DNA from: Winogradskyella arenosi
GTDB taxonomy: Bacteria; Bacteroidota; Bacteroidia; Flavobacteriales; Flavobacteriaceae
Assembly (NCBI RefSeq): GCF_003337305.1
Contig: NZ_QPJO01000002.1
Span: forward strand, 620,001 to 684,000
Direction: 5' to 3'
DNA: 64,000 nucleotides
Shown here in pieces: positions 26,292 through 30,769 of this stretch. The translations under genes and the position numbers were made by a program. Every line of letters begins with the position of its first letter. The first letter of the stretch is position 1. The notes below the pieces were generated by a model. That model searched no databases, was not told where the DNA came from, and worked only from the letters and a program-made list of their open reading frames with translations.

Positions 26292-28007
26292 CTACTTTCT
26301 AAAAAATGTTGCTTCAAATGTAGAACTATTTCCTACATTATCCGTGACAATTATTTTTAATTCGTTTTTAGTGTCTTTCACCACGTTATCATTAAAATCA
26401 TGGACCAATGAATTGGTTTTATAATCGTATTCCATTAAAATCCATTTTCCGTTTACCGTAGCTCTGTACTTGCTGATGCCTGTAAGTTTATCTTCAATCT
26501 TTAATTTTAGATAACGGTAGTTGCTAATCCATTTTTTATTGGTGAAATTTACCGGAGTAATCACAGGAGGTTCGGTATCCATAGCTAAGGCATAAGTTCC
26601 TAAAGCTTTTGTCTTTGCGATTAAACGATCGCCTTTACGAGAGGTGGAAACGTAATAGGGTTTTTTATAGTTTCCATAAAAACGCGCAATGTACAACTTG
26701 TTTTGGTGCTCTGCTTTATAGTGACTCAAATCGTAATTAATATAAAAATTCTGTTGCATCGGTAGTTTATCCTCTCCTAAAAAGAGCGTATCTGAATTTA
26801 CTTTAAAATCGATATAAGCATCATCATATAAAGTGTTTTTATAAAAGTCTACCGTAAAATTCCCAGAAGTCAATGTACTCTTTTTGTTGTTGTAGACTAA
26901 AGATTGTTTGGAGCGATTAACAGGATTATCGTCTTTTTTTAAAGGCTCATATTTACCATCAATAGGGATAACTACCCAAGATTCATTACCGTGATAATCT
27001 CTTACTCTTACTTTATAAACAGAAGCTGTGCTATCTTCAACGTGTACATAGCCTTGATCATAAGCATCTTTATATAGACTAAGTGGGTTATTAGGTTCAA
27101 TAAATAACTTTTGAATTTTTGTTCGGTGTTTAATGTAATACTCATAATCCACCAGGCGCCTTATGTGCTTAGTTTCATCAAAACTAAAACGCTTAAAATC
27201 GATCTCTAAACTTTTATTACCATTAAAAAAGGATTGAATATTACTTACACCGTTGTTGTTTGGGGCCAAATCTTGTTTGTCATTGGCGGTAATCCCGAAA
27301 CCTATATTGCCGTAAGCTGTAATTTTTTCTACAGCGTAATCACCATTTTTCTTAGGAATAAGTCTTAAAGGAACACGTTCATTTTTTCCATTTATCGTAG
27401 CATTTTCATCTCTGGGGTAAGCAAATACAGCCGTAACGTATGGAGATATAGAATCTTTAACCTCCATACCAAAAAGTAAGGGATTTATAGGGCGTTCTAA
27501 ATTATCCCTAATTTCAAAATGTAGATGAGGCCCTCCAGAGCCACCAGTGTTACCCGAATAACCAATAACTTCATCTTGTGCAATTAAAAGTTCTTTTGAA
27601 TGCGGAAAGACCTCCACCTCAAATCGCTCTTTATCATACTGACATTGCTTAATATAATCTTCTAAGCGTTTAGAAAATTTTTGAAGATGACCATACACTG
27701 TGGTGTACCCATTAGGATGTGTAATGTAAAGCGCTTTACCGTAACCATAATGTGAAATTTTAATTCTACTAATATAGCCTTCCGCAGCAGCATAAACTTT
27801 TAAACCCTCGCGTTGTTGCGTTTTAATATCTAAGCCACCATGAAAATGGGTAGATCGTAATTCAGCAAAGGTTCCCGACAAGACTAATGGAATGTCTAAG
27901 GGCTGTCTAAAATAATCTTGCGGATATTCTGATTCTTCACCTGTAGTGATATCAGGTTGCCCATAAAGGGAACAAGAGATAAGAAAGAGAATTAAAAATT
28001 GTTTCAT
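26292..28007 (-). CDS. M23 family metallopeptidase
   Basis: 571 residues. After a signal peptide (about 1-16) comes a LytM/M23 peptidase domain (about 38-175) with the zinc motif HFHGGLD (H56, D60) and the second motif GGPHLHFE (H161, H163), so the active site looks complete. The long C-terminal region (about 180-571) is beta-rich and of unknown fold. Such enzymes cut peptide cross-links in peptidoglycan; periplasmic. Located upstream of the TonB receptor gene on the same strand. Confidence 0.93.
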   Translation of the reverse strand: MKQFLILFLISCSLYGQPDITTGEESEYPQDYFRQPLDIPLVLSGTFAELRSTHFHGGLDIKTQQREGLKVYAAAEGYISRIKISHYGYGKALYITHPNGYTTVYGHLQKFSKRLEDYIKQCQYDKERFEVEVFPHSKELLIAQDEVIGYSGNTGGSGGPHLHFEIRDNLERPINPLLFGMEVKDSISPYVTAVFAYPRDENATINGKNERVPLRLIPKKNGDYAVEKITAYGNIGFGITANDKQDLAPNNNGVSNIQSFFNGNKSLEIDFKRFSFDETKHIRRLVDYEYYIKHRTKIQKLFIEPNNPLSLYKDAYDQGYVHVEDSTASVYKVRVRDYHGNESWVVIPIDGKYEPLKKDDNPVNRSKQSLVYNNKKSTLTSGNFTVDFYKNTLYDDAYIDFKVNSDTLFLGEDKLPMQQNFYINYDLSHYKAEHQNKLYIARFYGNYKKPYYVSTSRKGDRLIAKTKALGTYALAMDTEPPVITPVNFTNKKWISNYRYLKLKIEDKLTGISKYRATVNGKWILMEYDYKTNSLVHDFNDNVVKDTKNELKIIVTDNVGNSSTFEATFFRK

Positions 28008-28345
28008 AGAAATAGCTATAATAGCGAAAATATTAATTTGCTTACAGTTTCCAAACTGTTCAAGGGGATAAATTTAGTAACGTCTTATTTTAACAGAACT
28101 TATATGCGTTTGAAATAAATGTGAGACACAAGGCTAAATTTTGGGTCTGATTTTTGAGAATGAAAGTAAAATGAAAGCTTAACTGTTGGGAAACTTGGGG
28201 GTTAGCTGTCATAGAAACAGATTGCTGTGAAATTTTAGAACGATAAGCTTAAAAAATCGGTGGCTTTAACAAAAAATAATTGTAAAAGAATTGTGATTAT
28301 TCAATAGGTATGTTAACTTTGTTTTAATAGTATTGAATTGCTTTT
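28008..28345. other. Gene-free divergent region before the coiled-coil/zapA genes
   Basis: 338 bp between two divergent genes. No ORF of note. It is AT-rich, with the promoter at 28291-28321 at its right end. No repeat or RNA structure stood out otherwise. Confidence 0.6.
28291..28321 (+). promoter_or_regulatory. Promoter of the coiled-coil/zapA unit
   Basis: TTG (28291-28293), 20 nt, TAACTTTG (28314-28321), fitting the Bacteroidota consensus. The leader to the ATG at 28346 would be about 18 nt. Confidence 0.55.
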
Positions 28346-28636
28346 ATGAGTAAAATAGAAGACATTGTTGATGCACTAGAAAATAAAATCAGTAAGATTT
28401 TACACAAGCAAACCGTTTTAAAACAAACCAATGCTAAGCTAGAAAGTCAATTAGAACAGCAACAACAAAAGCTTTTAGAACAGCAAGAAGAAATTTCTGC
28501 ATGGGTAGAAAAATATGATACCCTCAAAATGGTAAATTCAATGCTAGGTAGTGACGAAAATAAACGAGAAACAAAACTCAAAATAAATGCACTTATTAGA
28601 GATATAGACCATTGTATTGGACAACTCTCAGAATAA
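28346..28636 (+). CDS. Small coiled-coil protein upstream of zapA
   Basis: 96 residues, almost entirely predicted coiled coil (heptad-like ALENKISKILHKQTVLKQTN, then a Gln-rich stretch LEQQQQKLLEQQ), without a signal peptide. It lies 20 bp before zapA and shares its promoter. Position and form resemble ZapB-type division proteins, but there is no sequence motif proving that; it is an inference. Probably cytoplasmic. Confidence 0.8.
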   Translation: MSKIEDIVDALENKISKILHKQTVLKQTNAKLESQLEQQQQKLLEQQEEISAWVEKYDTLKMVNSMLGSDENKRETKLKINALIRDIDHCIGQLSE

Positions 28637-28656
28637 TATTGTAAATTTAGATTATA

Positions 28657-28944
28657 ATGCCTGAACAATTAAAAATTAAACTTTCTATAGCCAATAGAGT
28701 TTATCCGTTGACGATAAACCCTAGTCAGGAGGAAGGTTTACGTAAAGCCACAAAGAATATTGAGGCAATGATTGGGCAATTTGAGCAGAATTACTCTGTA
28801 AGAGACAAGCAAGATGTTTTAGCCATGTGTGCTTTACAATTTGCAGCTCAAGTAGAGCAAAAGTCAATAGATAAAGAGTATGTTAATGAAGAAGTACAGG
28901 AAAAGTTAGAAGCTTTAAATGAACTTTTAAATCAACATGTTTAA
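28657..28944 (+). CDS. zapA: Cell division protein ZapA
   Basis: 95 residues, the usual ZapA size. ZapA binds FtsZ and bundles its filaments. The N-terminal KIKLSIANRVYPLTINPSQEEGLRKA matches the family's globular head (I..A.R.YPL....QE..L..A), and the C-terminal half (about 45-95) is the coiled-coil stalk. It is in one unit with the coiled-coil gene and stands directly in front of the candidate 6S RNA and rny. Confidence 0.92.
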   Translation: MPEQLKIKLSIANRVYPLTINPSQEEGLRKATKNIEAMIGQFEQNYSVRDKQDVLAMCALQFAAQVEQKSIDKEYVNEEVQEKLEALNELLNQHV

Positions 28945-28978
28945 CTCGTACGTTCTTTAAAATAAATAAAAGGTTACT

Positions 28979-29167
28979 GCCTACATTAGTTATATTTTTT
29001 GATAAACTCAACGATCAATTCTTTAAAAAGGGTGAGTTTAAGTTGTAAAATCGTGCTGTTAGTGCTGAACTTGCTTCAGTAGCTTAGACAGATTTTTGAT
29101 CAGCTTGTTAGCCCTAAACTTGTTTTTAAGGAGTTTATACAAAACCGATACTAGTGTAGGCTTTTTT
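28979..29167 (+). ncRNA. ssrS: Candidate 6S RNA (ssrS-like) between zapA and rny
   Basis: A 189-nt stretch with a closing helix GCCTACATTAG (28979-28989) to CTAGTGTAGGC (29151-29161), 11 bp with one G-U pair, followed by six T residues as a terminator. Inside it, ATAAACTC (29002-29009) can pair with GAGTTTAT (29131-29138) and GATCAA (29013-29018) with TTGATC (29096-29101), and a hairpin CTGAA/TTCAG with loop CTTGC (29065-29079) lies at the centre. This rod with open middle, its size (E. coli 6S is 184 nt) and its place behind zapA, where 6S sits in many proteobacteria, point to 6S RNA. It would bind RNA polymerase. Identification is by structure and position, not by a covariance model. Confidence 0.6.
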
Positions 29168-29191
29168 ATACACTAAAACTAAATTATAAAG

Positions 29192-30769
29192 ATGGATAAT
29201 TACGCAATAATGTTTATTGTAGGAGGAATACTAGGAGGAATAATAATAGGATATTTAATCGCTAAAGCTTTAGAAAAAGGTAAAGCGTCTAAGTTGATTG
29301 CCAGCGCAGAAATCGAAGCACAATCAATTTTAAAACAAGCCAAATCTGATGGTGATTCCTTAAAAAAGGATAAAATACTGCAGGCCAAAGAGAAGTTTAT
29401 TGAGTTAAAATCAGAACATGAAAAGGTGATTTTTTCTCGCGATAAAAAAATGGCTGAAACTGAAAAACGCATTAGAGATAAAGAATCTCAACTTTCTAGC
29501 GAGTTAAGTAAAGCAAAAAAATCAAATCAATCTTTAGAGAGTAAAATAAAAGATTACGATTTTAGATTGGAGTTTTTAGACAAGAAGCAAGAAGAAATTG
29601 AAAAAGCGCATAAAAATCAAATTAAGCAATTAGAAGTTATTTCATCGTTATCTGCAGAAGAGGCGAAGTCGCAATTAGTAGAGTCTTTGAAAGAGGAAGC
29701 CAAAACAGATGCCATGGCCTTTATTCAAGACCATGTTGAAGAAGCTAAATTAACCGCACAACAAGAAGCTAAGAAAATAATTATAAACACCATTCAACGT
29801 ATCGGTACAGAAGAAGCTGTAGATAACTGTGTTTCTGTATTTAATATCGAGTCGGATGACGTTAAAGGTCGTATTATTGGACGTGAAGGGCGAAATATTA
29901 GAGCCATTGAAGCTGCAACGGGTGTAGAGATTATTGTTGATGATACTCCTGAAGCTATAATTTTATCTTGTTTCGATTCTGTAAGACGAGAAATTGCACG
30001 CCTATCTTTACACAAATTAGTTACCGATGGTAGAATACATCCGGCACGAATTGAAGAGGTGGTGAGAAAGACAGAAAAGCAGATTGAACAAGAAATTATT
30101 GAAGTAGGAAAGCGTACGGTCATCGATTTAGGAATTCATGGATTACATCCAGAATTAATTAAAATGGTAGGACGTATGAAATACCGTTCGTCTTACGGTC
30201 AAAACTTATTACAACACTCACGTGAGGTTGCAAAACTATGTGGGGTGATGGCTGCAGAATTAGGATTAAATCCGAAATTAGCCAAACGTGCTGGTTTACT
30301 ACACGATATAGGAAAAGTACCATCATCAGAAACCGATGTGGAAACACCTCACGCTATTTTAGGTATGCAATGGGCTGAGAAACATGGAGAGAAACCAGAG
30401 GTTTGTAATGCTATTGGAGCACACCACGACGAAATTGAAATGACCACTTTGTTATCTCCAATTATTCAGGTTTGTGATGCTATTTCAGGAGCAAGACCAG
30501 GAGCAAGACGTCAGGTTTTAGATTCTTATATCCAACGATTAAAAGATTTAGAAGATGTGGCCTTCGGATTTACAGGGGTAAAGAAAGCTTATGCAATCCA
30601 AGCTGGTAGAGAGTTACGTGTTATTGTGGAAAGTGAAAAAGTATCGGATGATAAGGCTGCAAGTTTATCGTTTGAAATCTCTCAGAAAATACAAACGGAT
30701 ATGACTTATCCAGGACAAGTAAAAGTTACTGTGATAAGAGAAACAAGAGCGGTAAATATTGCAAAATAA
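29192..30769 (+). CDS. rny: Ribonuclease Y
   Basis: 525 residues, the normal length. Endoribonuclease that starts mRNA decay, anchored to the membrane. N-terminal membrane helix (about 4-25: [19 protein letters not shown]), long coiled coil (about 30-190), KH RNA-binding domain (about 205-280; [17 protein letters not shown]) and an HD domain with the LLHDIGK motif (H371, D372). The 5' leader overlaps the 6S RNA candidate region, whose T tract ends 25 bp before the ATG, so a separate promoter or read-through is needed. Strong terminator at 30794-30822. Confidence 0.97.

Follow-up and report, generated by a model that had tools for sequence, protein, structure and literature searches.

6S RNA is a small regulatory RNA that inhibits RNA polymerase, and boxA is a signal through which bacteria ordinarily control rRNA synthesis. 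Rfam keeps 6S-Flavo (RF01685) as a family separate from the general 6S model RF00013; the RNA has been catalogued as 6S-flavo among the Bacteroidetes RNAs (Weinberg 2010, PMC2864571), in Flavobacterium psychrophilum 6S RNA has been detected along with other known RNAs (PMC9723704), and evidence has been reported for product RNAs (pRNAs) from the Bacteroides 6S RNA in B. thetaiotaomicron (PMC7366714). In beta- and gamma-proteobacteria the gene order zapB-zapA-6S is reported (PMC7641849), and for B. subtilis 6S-1 a route through a central-bubble-collapse helix has been described (PMC8876501). The boxA consensus of gamma-proteobacteria is given as GYTCTTTAANA in a paper on suhB, whose boxA list left out non-coding RNAs (PMC5725501); in the rrn operons of Enterobacteriaceae, boxA and boxC are reported to lie 18–19 nt apart in 98% of cases, and a tethering model has been proposed (PMC10250234). 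Our full-text searches of open-licence papers found no literature joining boxA and 6S RNA. Here we analysed a 64,000-nt stretch of the Winogradskyella arenosi genome (Flavobacteriaceae; contig NZ_QPJO01000002.1, positions 620,001 to 684,000; hereafter the window), in which a 6S RNA lies between zapA and rny and is preceded by an element that fits the boxA consensus. The best explanation as a whole, which we hold to be probable, is that the 6S RNA gene lies in an operon with a Nus-factor boxA.

The RNA at 28979–29167 is not new but a member of the known 6S-Flavo family, and it is almost certainly the 6S RNA of this genome, closing helix included. In an Rfam scan of the window, the single match above gathering was RF01685 at 29006–29136 (95.6 bits; gathering 85), and genome-wide it was the sole RF01685 match. 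The sequence, its position and its neighbouring genes agree with the original description. A candidate 6S RNA between zapA and rny was what the original prediction had put forward from the letters, and it is borne out by this match, by a covarying closing helix and by synteny; the covariance-model check that it had named also gave a 6S match, although through RF01685, whereas RF00013 returned no row for 28700–29400 at expectation values (E) up to 10. For the comparison, 139 loci were collected, one incomplete locus (L008) having been dropped beforehand; counts over 137 loci include the window (L001) and exclude L087 and L138, for which the rule that sets the 6S ends failed. The arrangement zapA-6S-rny, in the same order and on the same strand, was present in 136/139 loci, with rny starting a median of ~22 nt after the 6S RNA in these 136, and the 6S length ranged from 158 to 212 in the 137 loci. 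RF01685 was found in 58/60 genomes of the genus and in all 149 sampled genomes of the family (138 above the cut-off), and in 37/296 sampled genomes of the phylum, 30 from the same family, 6 from a sister family of the order (f2) and 1 from elsewhere in the class, a sample passed through strict filters in which weak matches may be lost. In 16 genomes of families f4–f9, the zapA-rny spacer was short or no zapA was found there, and no 6S RNA was seen by eye at the spacer; Rfam reported no 6S RNA in any of the 13 of these genomes that were scanned, 6S RNAs at other sites not having been searched for.

As a separate observation, locus L138 (genome G241, family f5) matches 6S-Flavo weakly (38 bits, E 4.7e-4) and has an ACTCAAC template, possibly a 6S RNA at a different site in a distant family; zapA and rny are not in the locus, and the upstream stretch inspected by eye showed no box.

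The minimum free energy of 28979–29167 was −55.1 kcal/mol, compared with a mean of −36.1 for shuffled sequences (z −4.6; 0/200 shuffles as good). Fold and covariation together describe a rod of about 200 nt with a closing stem, a central bubble and an apical arm, consisting of the following parts.

28979–28990, plus strand: 5′ strand of the closing helix P1, pairing with 29150–29161.
28997–29009, plus strand: 5′ strand of helix P2; 28997–29001 pairs with 29140–29144, and 29002–29009 (ATAAACTC) with 29131–29138 (GAGTTTAT).
29004–29012, plus strand: predicted pRNA template AAACTCAAC, for a pRNA beginning 5′-GUUGAGUUU... at an inferred start site.
29013–29028, plus strand: 5′ side of the central bubble, from fold and alignment.
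29029–29115, plus strand: apical arm with the helices 29029–29033/29111–29115, 29040–29045/29101–29106, 29049–29050/29096–29097 and 29056–29059/29088–29091, and a variable tip.
29116–29130, plus strand: 3′ side of the central bubble, with A29116 and T29121 invariant over 59 sequences.
29131–29144, plus strand: 3′ strand of helix P2, from the pair counts of the alignment.
29150–29161, plus strand: 3′ strand of the closing helix P1, pairing with 28979–28990.
29162–29167, plus strand: T tract (T6) ending the 6S gene, intrinsic-terminator-like, from sequence and alignment.

Covariation was assessed on an alignment (A1) of the window and 58 relatives, less than 84% mutually identical and drawn from 138 full-length sequences, to which L087 was restored and in which the end rule cut L049 short within the 3′ strand and left L110 overlong. 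Over the 42 pairs of the whole fold, 96.2% of 2445 cells were paired versus 85.0% after shuffling, 35/42 pairs changed on both sides somewhere among the 59 sequences, and the covariation measure was 0.424 versus 0.208, with 0/500 shuffles as good, shuffles that ignore relatedness. When the partners were slid, the paired cells fell to 33–46%, a comparison that favours the fold in place because the structure was taken from the window itself. The closing helix proposed originally as an 11-bp pairing of both ends is real and covaries across relatives, with changes on both sides at 11/12 pairs and 98.0% of cells paired, but it measures 12 bp, and the T tract noted at the end follows it directly. 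Helix P2 had 95.7% of cells paired and 8/13 pairs with changes on both sides, and helices 3 to 6 of the apical arm had 93.7–97.6% of cells paired. The RF01685 model, of 108 positions, starts inside P2 and contains neither P1 nor the T tract; it thus omits a well supported outer helix leading into the T tract. A separate terminator-like hairpin at the 3′ end was considered and set aside; it appears only if the 3′ part is folded alone. The predicted pRNA template is identical in 54/59 sequences, and a pRNA starting at C29012 would have the sequence GUUGAGUUUAUC. In the 3′ side of the bubble, 29115–29122 (TAAACTTG) may mimic the −7 box TAnnTTTG, a suggestion in which only A29116 and T29121 are strictly kept, since 29115 covaries with its partner 29029 instead of staying T.

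Immediately upstream, after the zapA stop codon and outside the coordinates first proposed for the RNA, lies the element that gives this locus its interest.

28951–28964, plus strand: boxA-like element CGTTCTTTAAAATA, of which 28952–28962 (GTTCTTTAAAA) fits GYTCTTTAANA at 11/11 positions.

Across the 139 loci, (A)CGTTCTTTAAAATA is a recurrent string in the stretch that separates the zapA stop from the start of the 6S RNA. Exact GYTCTTTAANA occupied the slot before the 6S RNA in 68/137 loci, where 0.03 were expected, and occurred on the same strand outside the slots twice in 297158 positions of the 137 loci. In the genus, the exact box was present in 26/29 loci and a relaxed form in 29/29 (window included); the relaxed form was present in 11/11 loci of Flavobacterium (g112), and among other genera of the family, one locus each (89 of 90, L087 being left out), 41 carried the exact and 79 the relaxed box, compared with a relaxed background of 32/4311 windows. 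The distance from the box end to P1 was 11–18 nt in 120/121 box-bearing loci (mode 15; 16 nt in the window). The element is strongly conserved, with good grounds for the name boxA, and 28952–28962 probably has a boxA function.

A second family, f3, which belongs to another order, carries the same combination. Among 21 genomes of other families of the class, the five f3 genomes showed a long zapA-rny spacer that contains the box, a closing helix like CCGCAGTTAAAT/ATTTAGTTGCGG together with a T run, and AA[AG]CTTAAC[AG]CTTC, recognisable as the pRNA template. After 28 further loci had been added, in an f3 set of 33 loci from 61 genomes searched, taken as the best rny matches plus three and not as a random draw, the box was present in 22/22 spacers with the 6S template or a variant of it and in 1/11 without (L252). 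The consensus fold of 20 f3 loci (alignment A2, which excludes L247 and L248, with a variant template, and 11 template-less spacers) contains 21 pairs, of which 10 show double changes. Box and helix lie 16–26 nt apart in 19/22 f3 loci; the value of 4 at L263 reflects a misplaced helix start, and the range of this locus was set by hand for A2. Like the 11–18 nt seen in the family, the f3 spacing is near the 18–19 nt between boxA and boxC in rrn operons. Of the 22 f3 template loci, 17 were scanned, and Rfam reported no 6S RNA in any of them (E limit 0.5 for L222 and L225, 1 for the other 15). The f3 6S RNA has thus diverged beyond Rfam's reach, and the box has outlasted the sequence of the RNA. 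Some template-less f3 spacers keep only a shrunken hairpin, and in L259, L262 and L265 the 6S RNA is apparently reduced to a bare closing hairpin with a T run, template and boxA being gone.

The element also bears a partial resemblance to a box in rRNA leaders. Because no 16S gene was found in the W. arenosi assembly, leaders were taken from 36 relatives, 35 of them long enough (the f2 leader L210, with 56 bases, was too short). A GTTCAT[TA] box followed by ATATTG or TTATTG lies 3′ of the last TAnnTTTG in the rRNA leaders of 29/32 family genomes; G079, G403 and G368 gave no match to the pattern, and G403 and G368 carry GTTCGTAGACATATTG by eye. In the W. arenosi genome, GTTCWTTRAMATA had 9 matches and its reversed control 0: 6 lie in open reading frames (ORFs), 2 in rRNA-type leaders at contig ends and 1 at the 6S RNA, and the letters after the two contig-end sites are the same as in the rRNA leaders of relatives. 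At these two sites (L216 and L221) the contigs break just past the leader, so that, with no 16S gene found, this assembly seems to lack the rRNA operons.

Several observations weigh against reading the element as a Nus-factor boxA. The relaxed box is missing from 10/89 other genera of the family, some of which have a near-match and others nothing, and from 6 loci of f2, where zapA-6S-rny is kept; the three f2 rRNA leaders seen carry GATCATTGACATA all the same. Exact GYTCTTTAANA is not a rare string, with 69 matches in the genome and 38 for the reversed control; among the 30 of these 69 sites that had loci to inspect, 4 lay outside ORFs of at least 100 aa, the 6S site among them, and for GTTCTTTRAAA 16 of 17 sites were inside ORFs. 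The pattern GTTCWTTRAMATA was drafted after both kinds of element were known, so as to cover both. The rRNA box usually has A at the fifth base (GTTCATT), whereas most 6S boxes have T, and owing to this difference, when sites are scored with a matrix of the rRNA boxes, the 6S site comes no higher than seventh in the window and takes first place in just 81/137 loci. In growing transcripts the box is predicted to pair with nearby RNA (mean pair probability up to 0.78). The f3 association is significant (Fisher p 1.2e-7) by a test that ignores phylogeny, and f3 loci L224 and L227, with ~100 nt between box and helix, do not suit strict tethering.

The genes around the 6S RNA, and the promoter predicted for them, are as follows.

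28314–28321, plus strand: predicted operon promoter TAACTTTG, matching the Bacteroidota sigma-A −7 box TAnnTTTG.
28346–28636, plus strand: orf96, an ORF for a coiled-coil-like protein with a weak, sub-threshold ZapB resemblance, first gene of the predicted operon.
28657–28944, plus strand: zapA (PF05164, E 1.2e-18).
29192–30769, plus strand: rny, for RNase Y (TIGR03319, E 1.5e-190), starting 24 nt past the T tract.

TAnnTTTG is the −7 box reported for sigma-A of F. psychrophilum (PMC9723704). Within 28001–29200 it has one match, at 28314 upstream of orf96, and it lies 31–36 nt upstream of orf96 in 59/59 loci examined (among L001–L060). Within 150 nt upstream of the 6S RNA it was found in 2/137 loci, compared with ~14 predicted from the background of the loci themselves. 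These positions suggest a single transcription unit, promoter-orf96-zapA-boxA-6S-rny, which would form one operon. On the other side, TAnnTTTG occurs inside the 6S RNA in 10/137 loci, and the window has one match to TAnnTTGY, TAAGTTGT at 29039–29046, so that an rny promoter within the 6S gene is conceivable and the 6S RNA may have a promoter of its own, internal or close by, that departs from the consensus. As a side observation, TAAACTTG at 29115–29122, one letter off TAnnTTTG, or TAAGTTGT could promote rny from inside the 6S gene at the DNA level. Against PF06005 (ZapB), orf96 scored 15.7 bits (cut-off 31.5, E 0.022), with several unrelated families ranking higher; given the zapB-zapA-6S order of proteobacteria, this sub-threshold match raises the prospect that the gene order is common across phyla.

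The preferred explanation, a 6S RNA in an operon with a Nus-factor boxA, would work as follows. A single transcript would run from the promoter at 28314 through orf96, zapA, boxA and the 6S RNA into rny. In the manner of an rRNA leader, the boxA at 28952–28962 would recruit NusB and S10 (NusE) to the elongating polymerase. A polymerase that has passed translated zapA would be exposed to Rho for ~190 nt, and a boxA at this point would let the Nus complex shield it on its passage into the untranslated 6S RNA. By tethering, the complex would hold the RNA near the exit channel and may bring the 5′ strand of P1 together with its 3′ partner, and the 6S RNA would then be processed from the longer transcript. 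As in the 6S family generally, the central bubble of the rod would mimic an open promoter and bind the sigma-A RNA polymerase, which would copy a short pRNA from the 5′ strand of the bubble and so release the 6S RNA. We lean slightly towards the broader view that in two families of different orders of one class the 6S RNA gene is a Nus-factor target, the spacer boxA loading an rRNA-type antitermination complex and tying 6S synthesis to the rRNA machinery and perhaps to the pool of free S10. One more RNA of a known family adds little by itself; if the view holds, 6S RNA and rRNA, opposite ends of growth-rate control, would be under one common elongation control, and it would be explained how a ~190-nt untranslated RNA, set amid the genes of a protein-coding operon, survives Rho.

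Compatible with this explanation is a bubble collapse, in which 29017–29028 would pair with 29124–29135 once a pRNA covers the template; we offer it tentatively, as a less than even prospect. In the window, the collapse helix is predicted when between 8 and 16 nt of the template, ending at 29012, are blocked, with 10.3 expected bubble pairs in the presence of the pRNA versus 0.8 in the free RNA. At least 6 pairs are expected in 27/59 sequences with the pRNA versus 11/59 free, which leaves 32/59 under 6 with it. The native strands outdid strands swapped between species (0/5000 permutations, compared with 787 and 1638 of 5000 for unrelated region pairs), but this swap test, which ignores phylogeny, is null without the P2 part GAGTTT (4320/5000). 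Counted pair by pair, the covariation is not convincing, since depending on the measure 33 to 96 of 500 shuffles reach the same level, and slid partners score alike. The bubble-collapse helix is therefore best described as a clade-limited prediction.

Two alternatives take the boxA-like element for something else. That it is part of a dedicated 6S promoter, served by an alternative sigma factor or an activator, and not a boxA in the RNA, draws on how little its position varies relative to the 6S 5′ end (modes −21 and −22, range −16 to −27, in 108/109 loci with 8 of 9 letters) and on the fact that 6S RNAs elsewhere have their own promoters. However, a similar box in rRNA leaders sits 3′ of a TAnnTTTG promoter and hence inside the transcript, TAnnTTTG is near the 6S RNA in only the two loci mentioned, and the fit to the published boxA consensus is exact, so that we regard a dedicated promoter as unlikely. 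A nuclease or maturation site common to the precursors of rRNA and 6S RNA strikes us as just as improbable. The two RNAs are alike in being stable and in their probable excision from longer transcripts, with the element 5′ of the RNA in each case, and in E. coli the 6S-containing transcript is reported to be processed (PMC7641849); the exact boxA consensus is again what tells against such a site.

The original prediction had further suggested that ATAAACTC could pair with a nearer copy of its partner, so that the fold could switch.

29033–29040, plus strand: proposed alternative partner TGAGTTTA, counterpart of 29003–29010, without covariation.

The strings named for the switch, ATAAACTC at 29002–29009, GAGTTTA at 29034–29040 and GAGTTTAT at 29131–29138, are all present, but a conserved switch is not supported, and a second stable state of this kind is very improbable. 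Each pair of its 5-bp core ACTCA/TGAGT can form in 51 to 57 sequences (of the 58 or 59 scored for that pair), and its mean pair probability reaches 0.79 in a transcript ending at 29060, yet over the 59 sequences it is paired in 76.9% versus 77.4% after shuffling (468/500 shuffles as good), its probability drops to 0.00 once the transcript reaches 29120, forcing the 8-bp helix gives −45.9 instead of −55.1 kcal/mol, and inspection by eye shows it shortened in Flavobacterium and lost from f2. Nine sequences have C at 29003; in 8 of them its P2 partner 29137 is G, and in 1 the nearer copy changes along with it. Lacking covariation, the hairpin 29003–29010/29033–29040 was dismissed as a conserved alternative state; by these equilibrium folds of growing transcripts it would be at most a folding intermediate.

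Among known systems, the RNA is closest to 6S-Flavo (RF01685), with which it shares core sequence, structure and phylum; the Rfam model lacks P1 and the T tract and misses the f3 homologues, and the full-length structure and these homologues make it extendable at both ends and across an order boundary. The rod with closing stem, central bubble and apical arm is common to E. coli 6S RNA, as the family is described (PMC8876501). Compared with E. coli ssrS, the 6S RNA follows zapA directly in both genomes, but the next gene is fau there (zapA, ssrS, fau) and rny here, and the E. coli zapA-ssrS spacer shows no boxA-like element by eye, a further point against the preferred explanation. PMC7641849 cites a study that, to go by its title, concerns Rho-dependent termination of ssrS. 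Compared with B. subtilis 6S-1, a bubble-collapse route is predicted for the window, while 32/59 sequences stay under 6 expected pairs. With the boxA of rRNA leaders and suhB, finally, the element shares an 11/11 fit to the consensus and a position ahead of a long-range helix at similar spacing, whereas here it stands before a small regulatory RNA in a protein-coding gene cluster.
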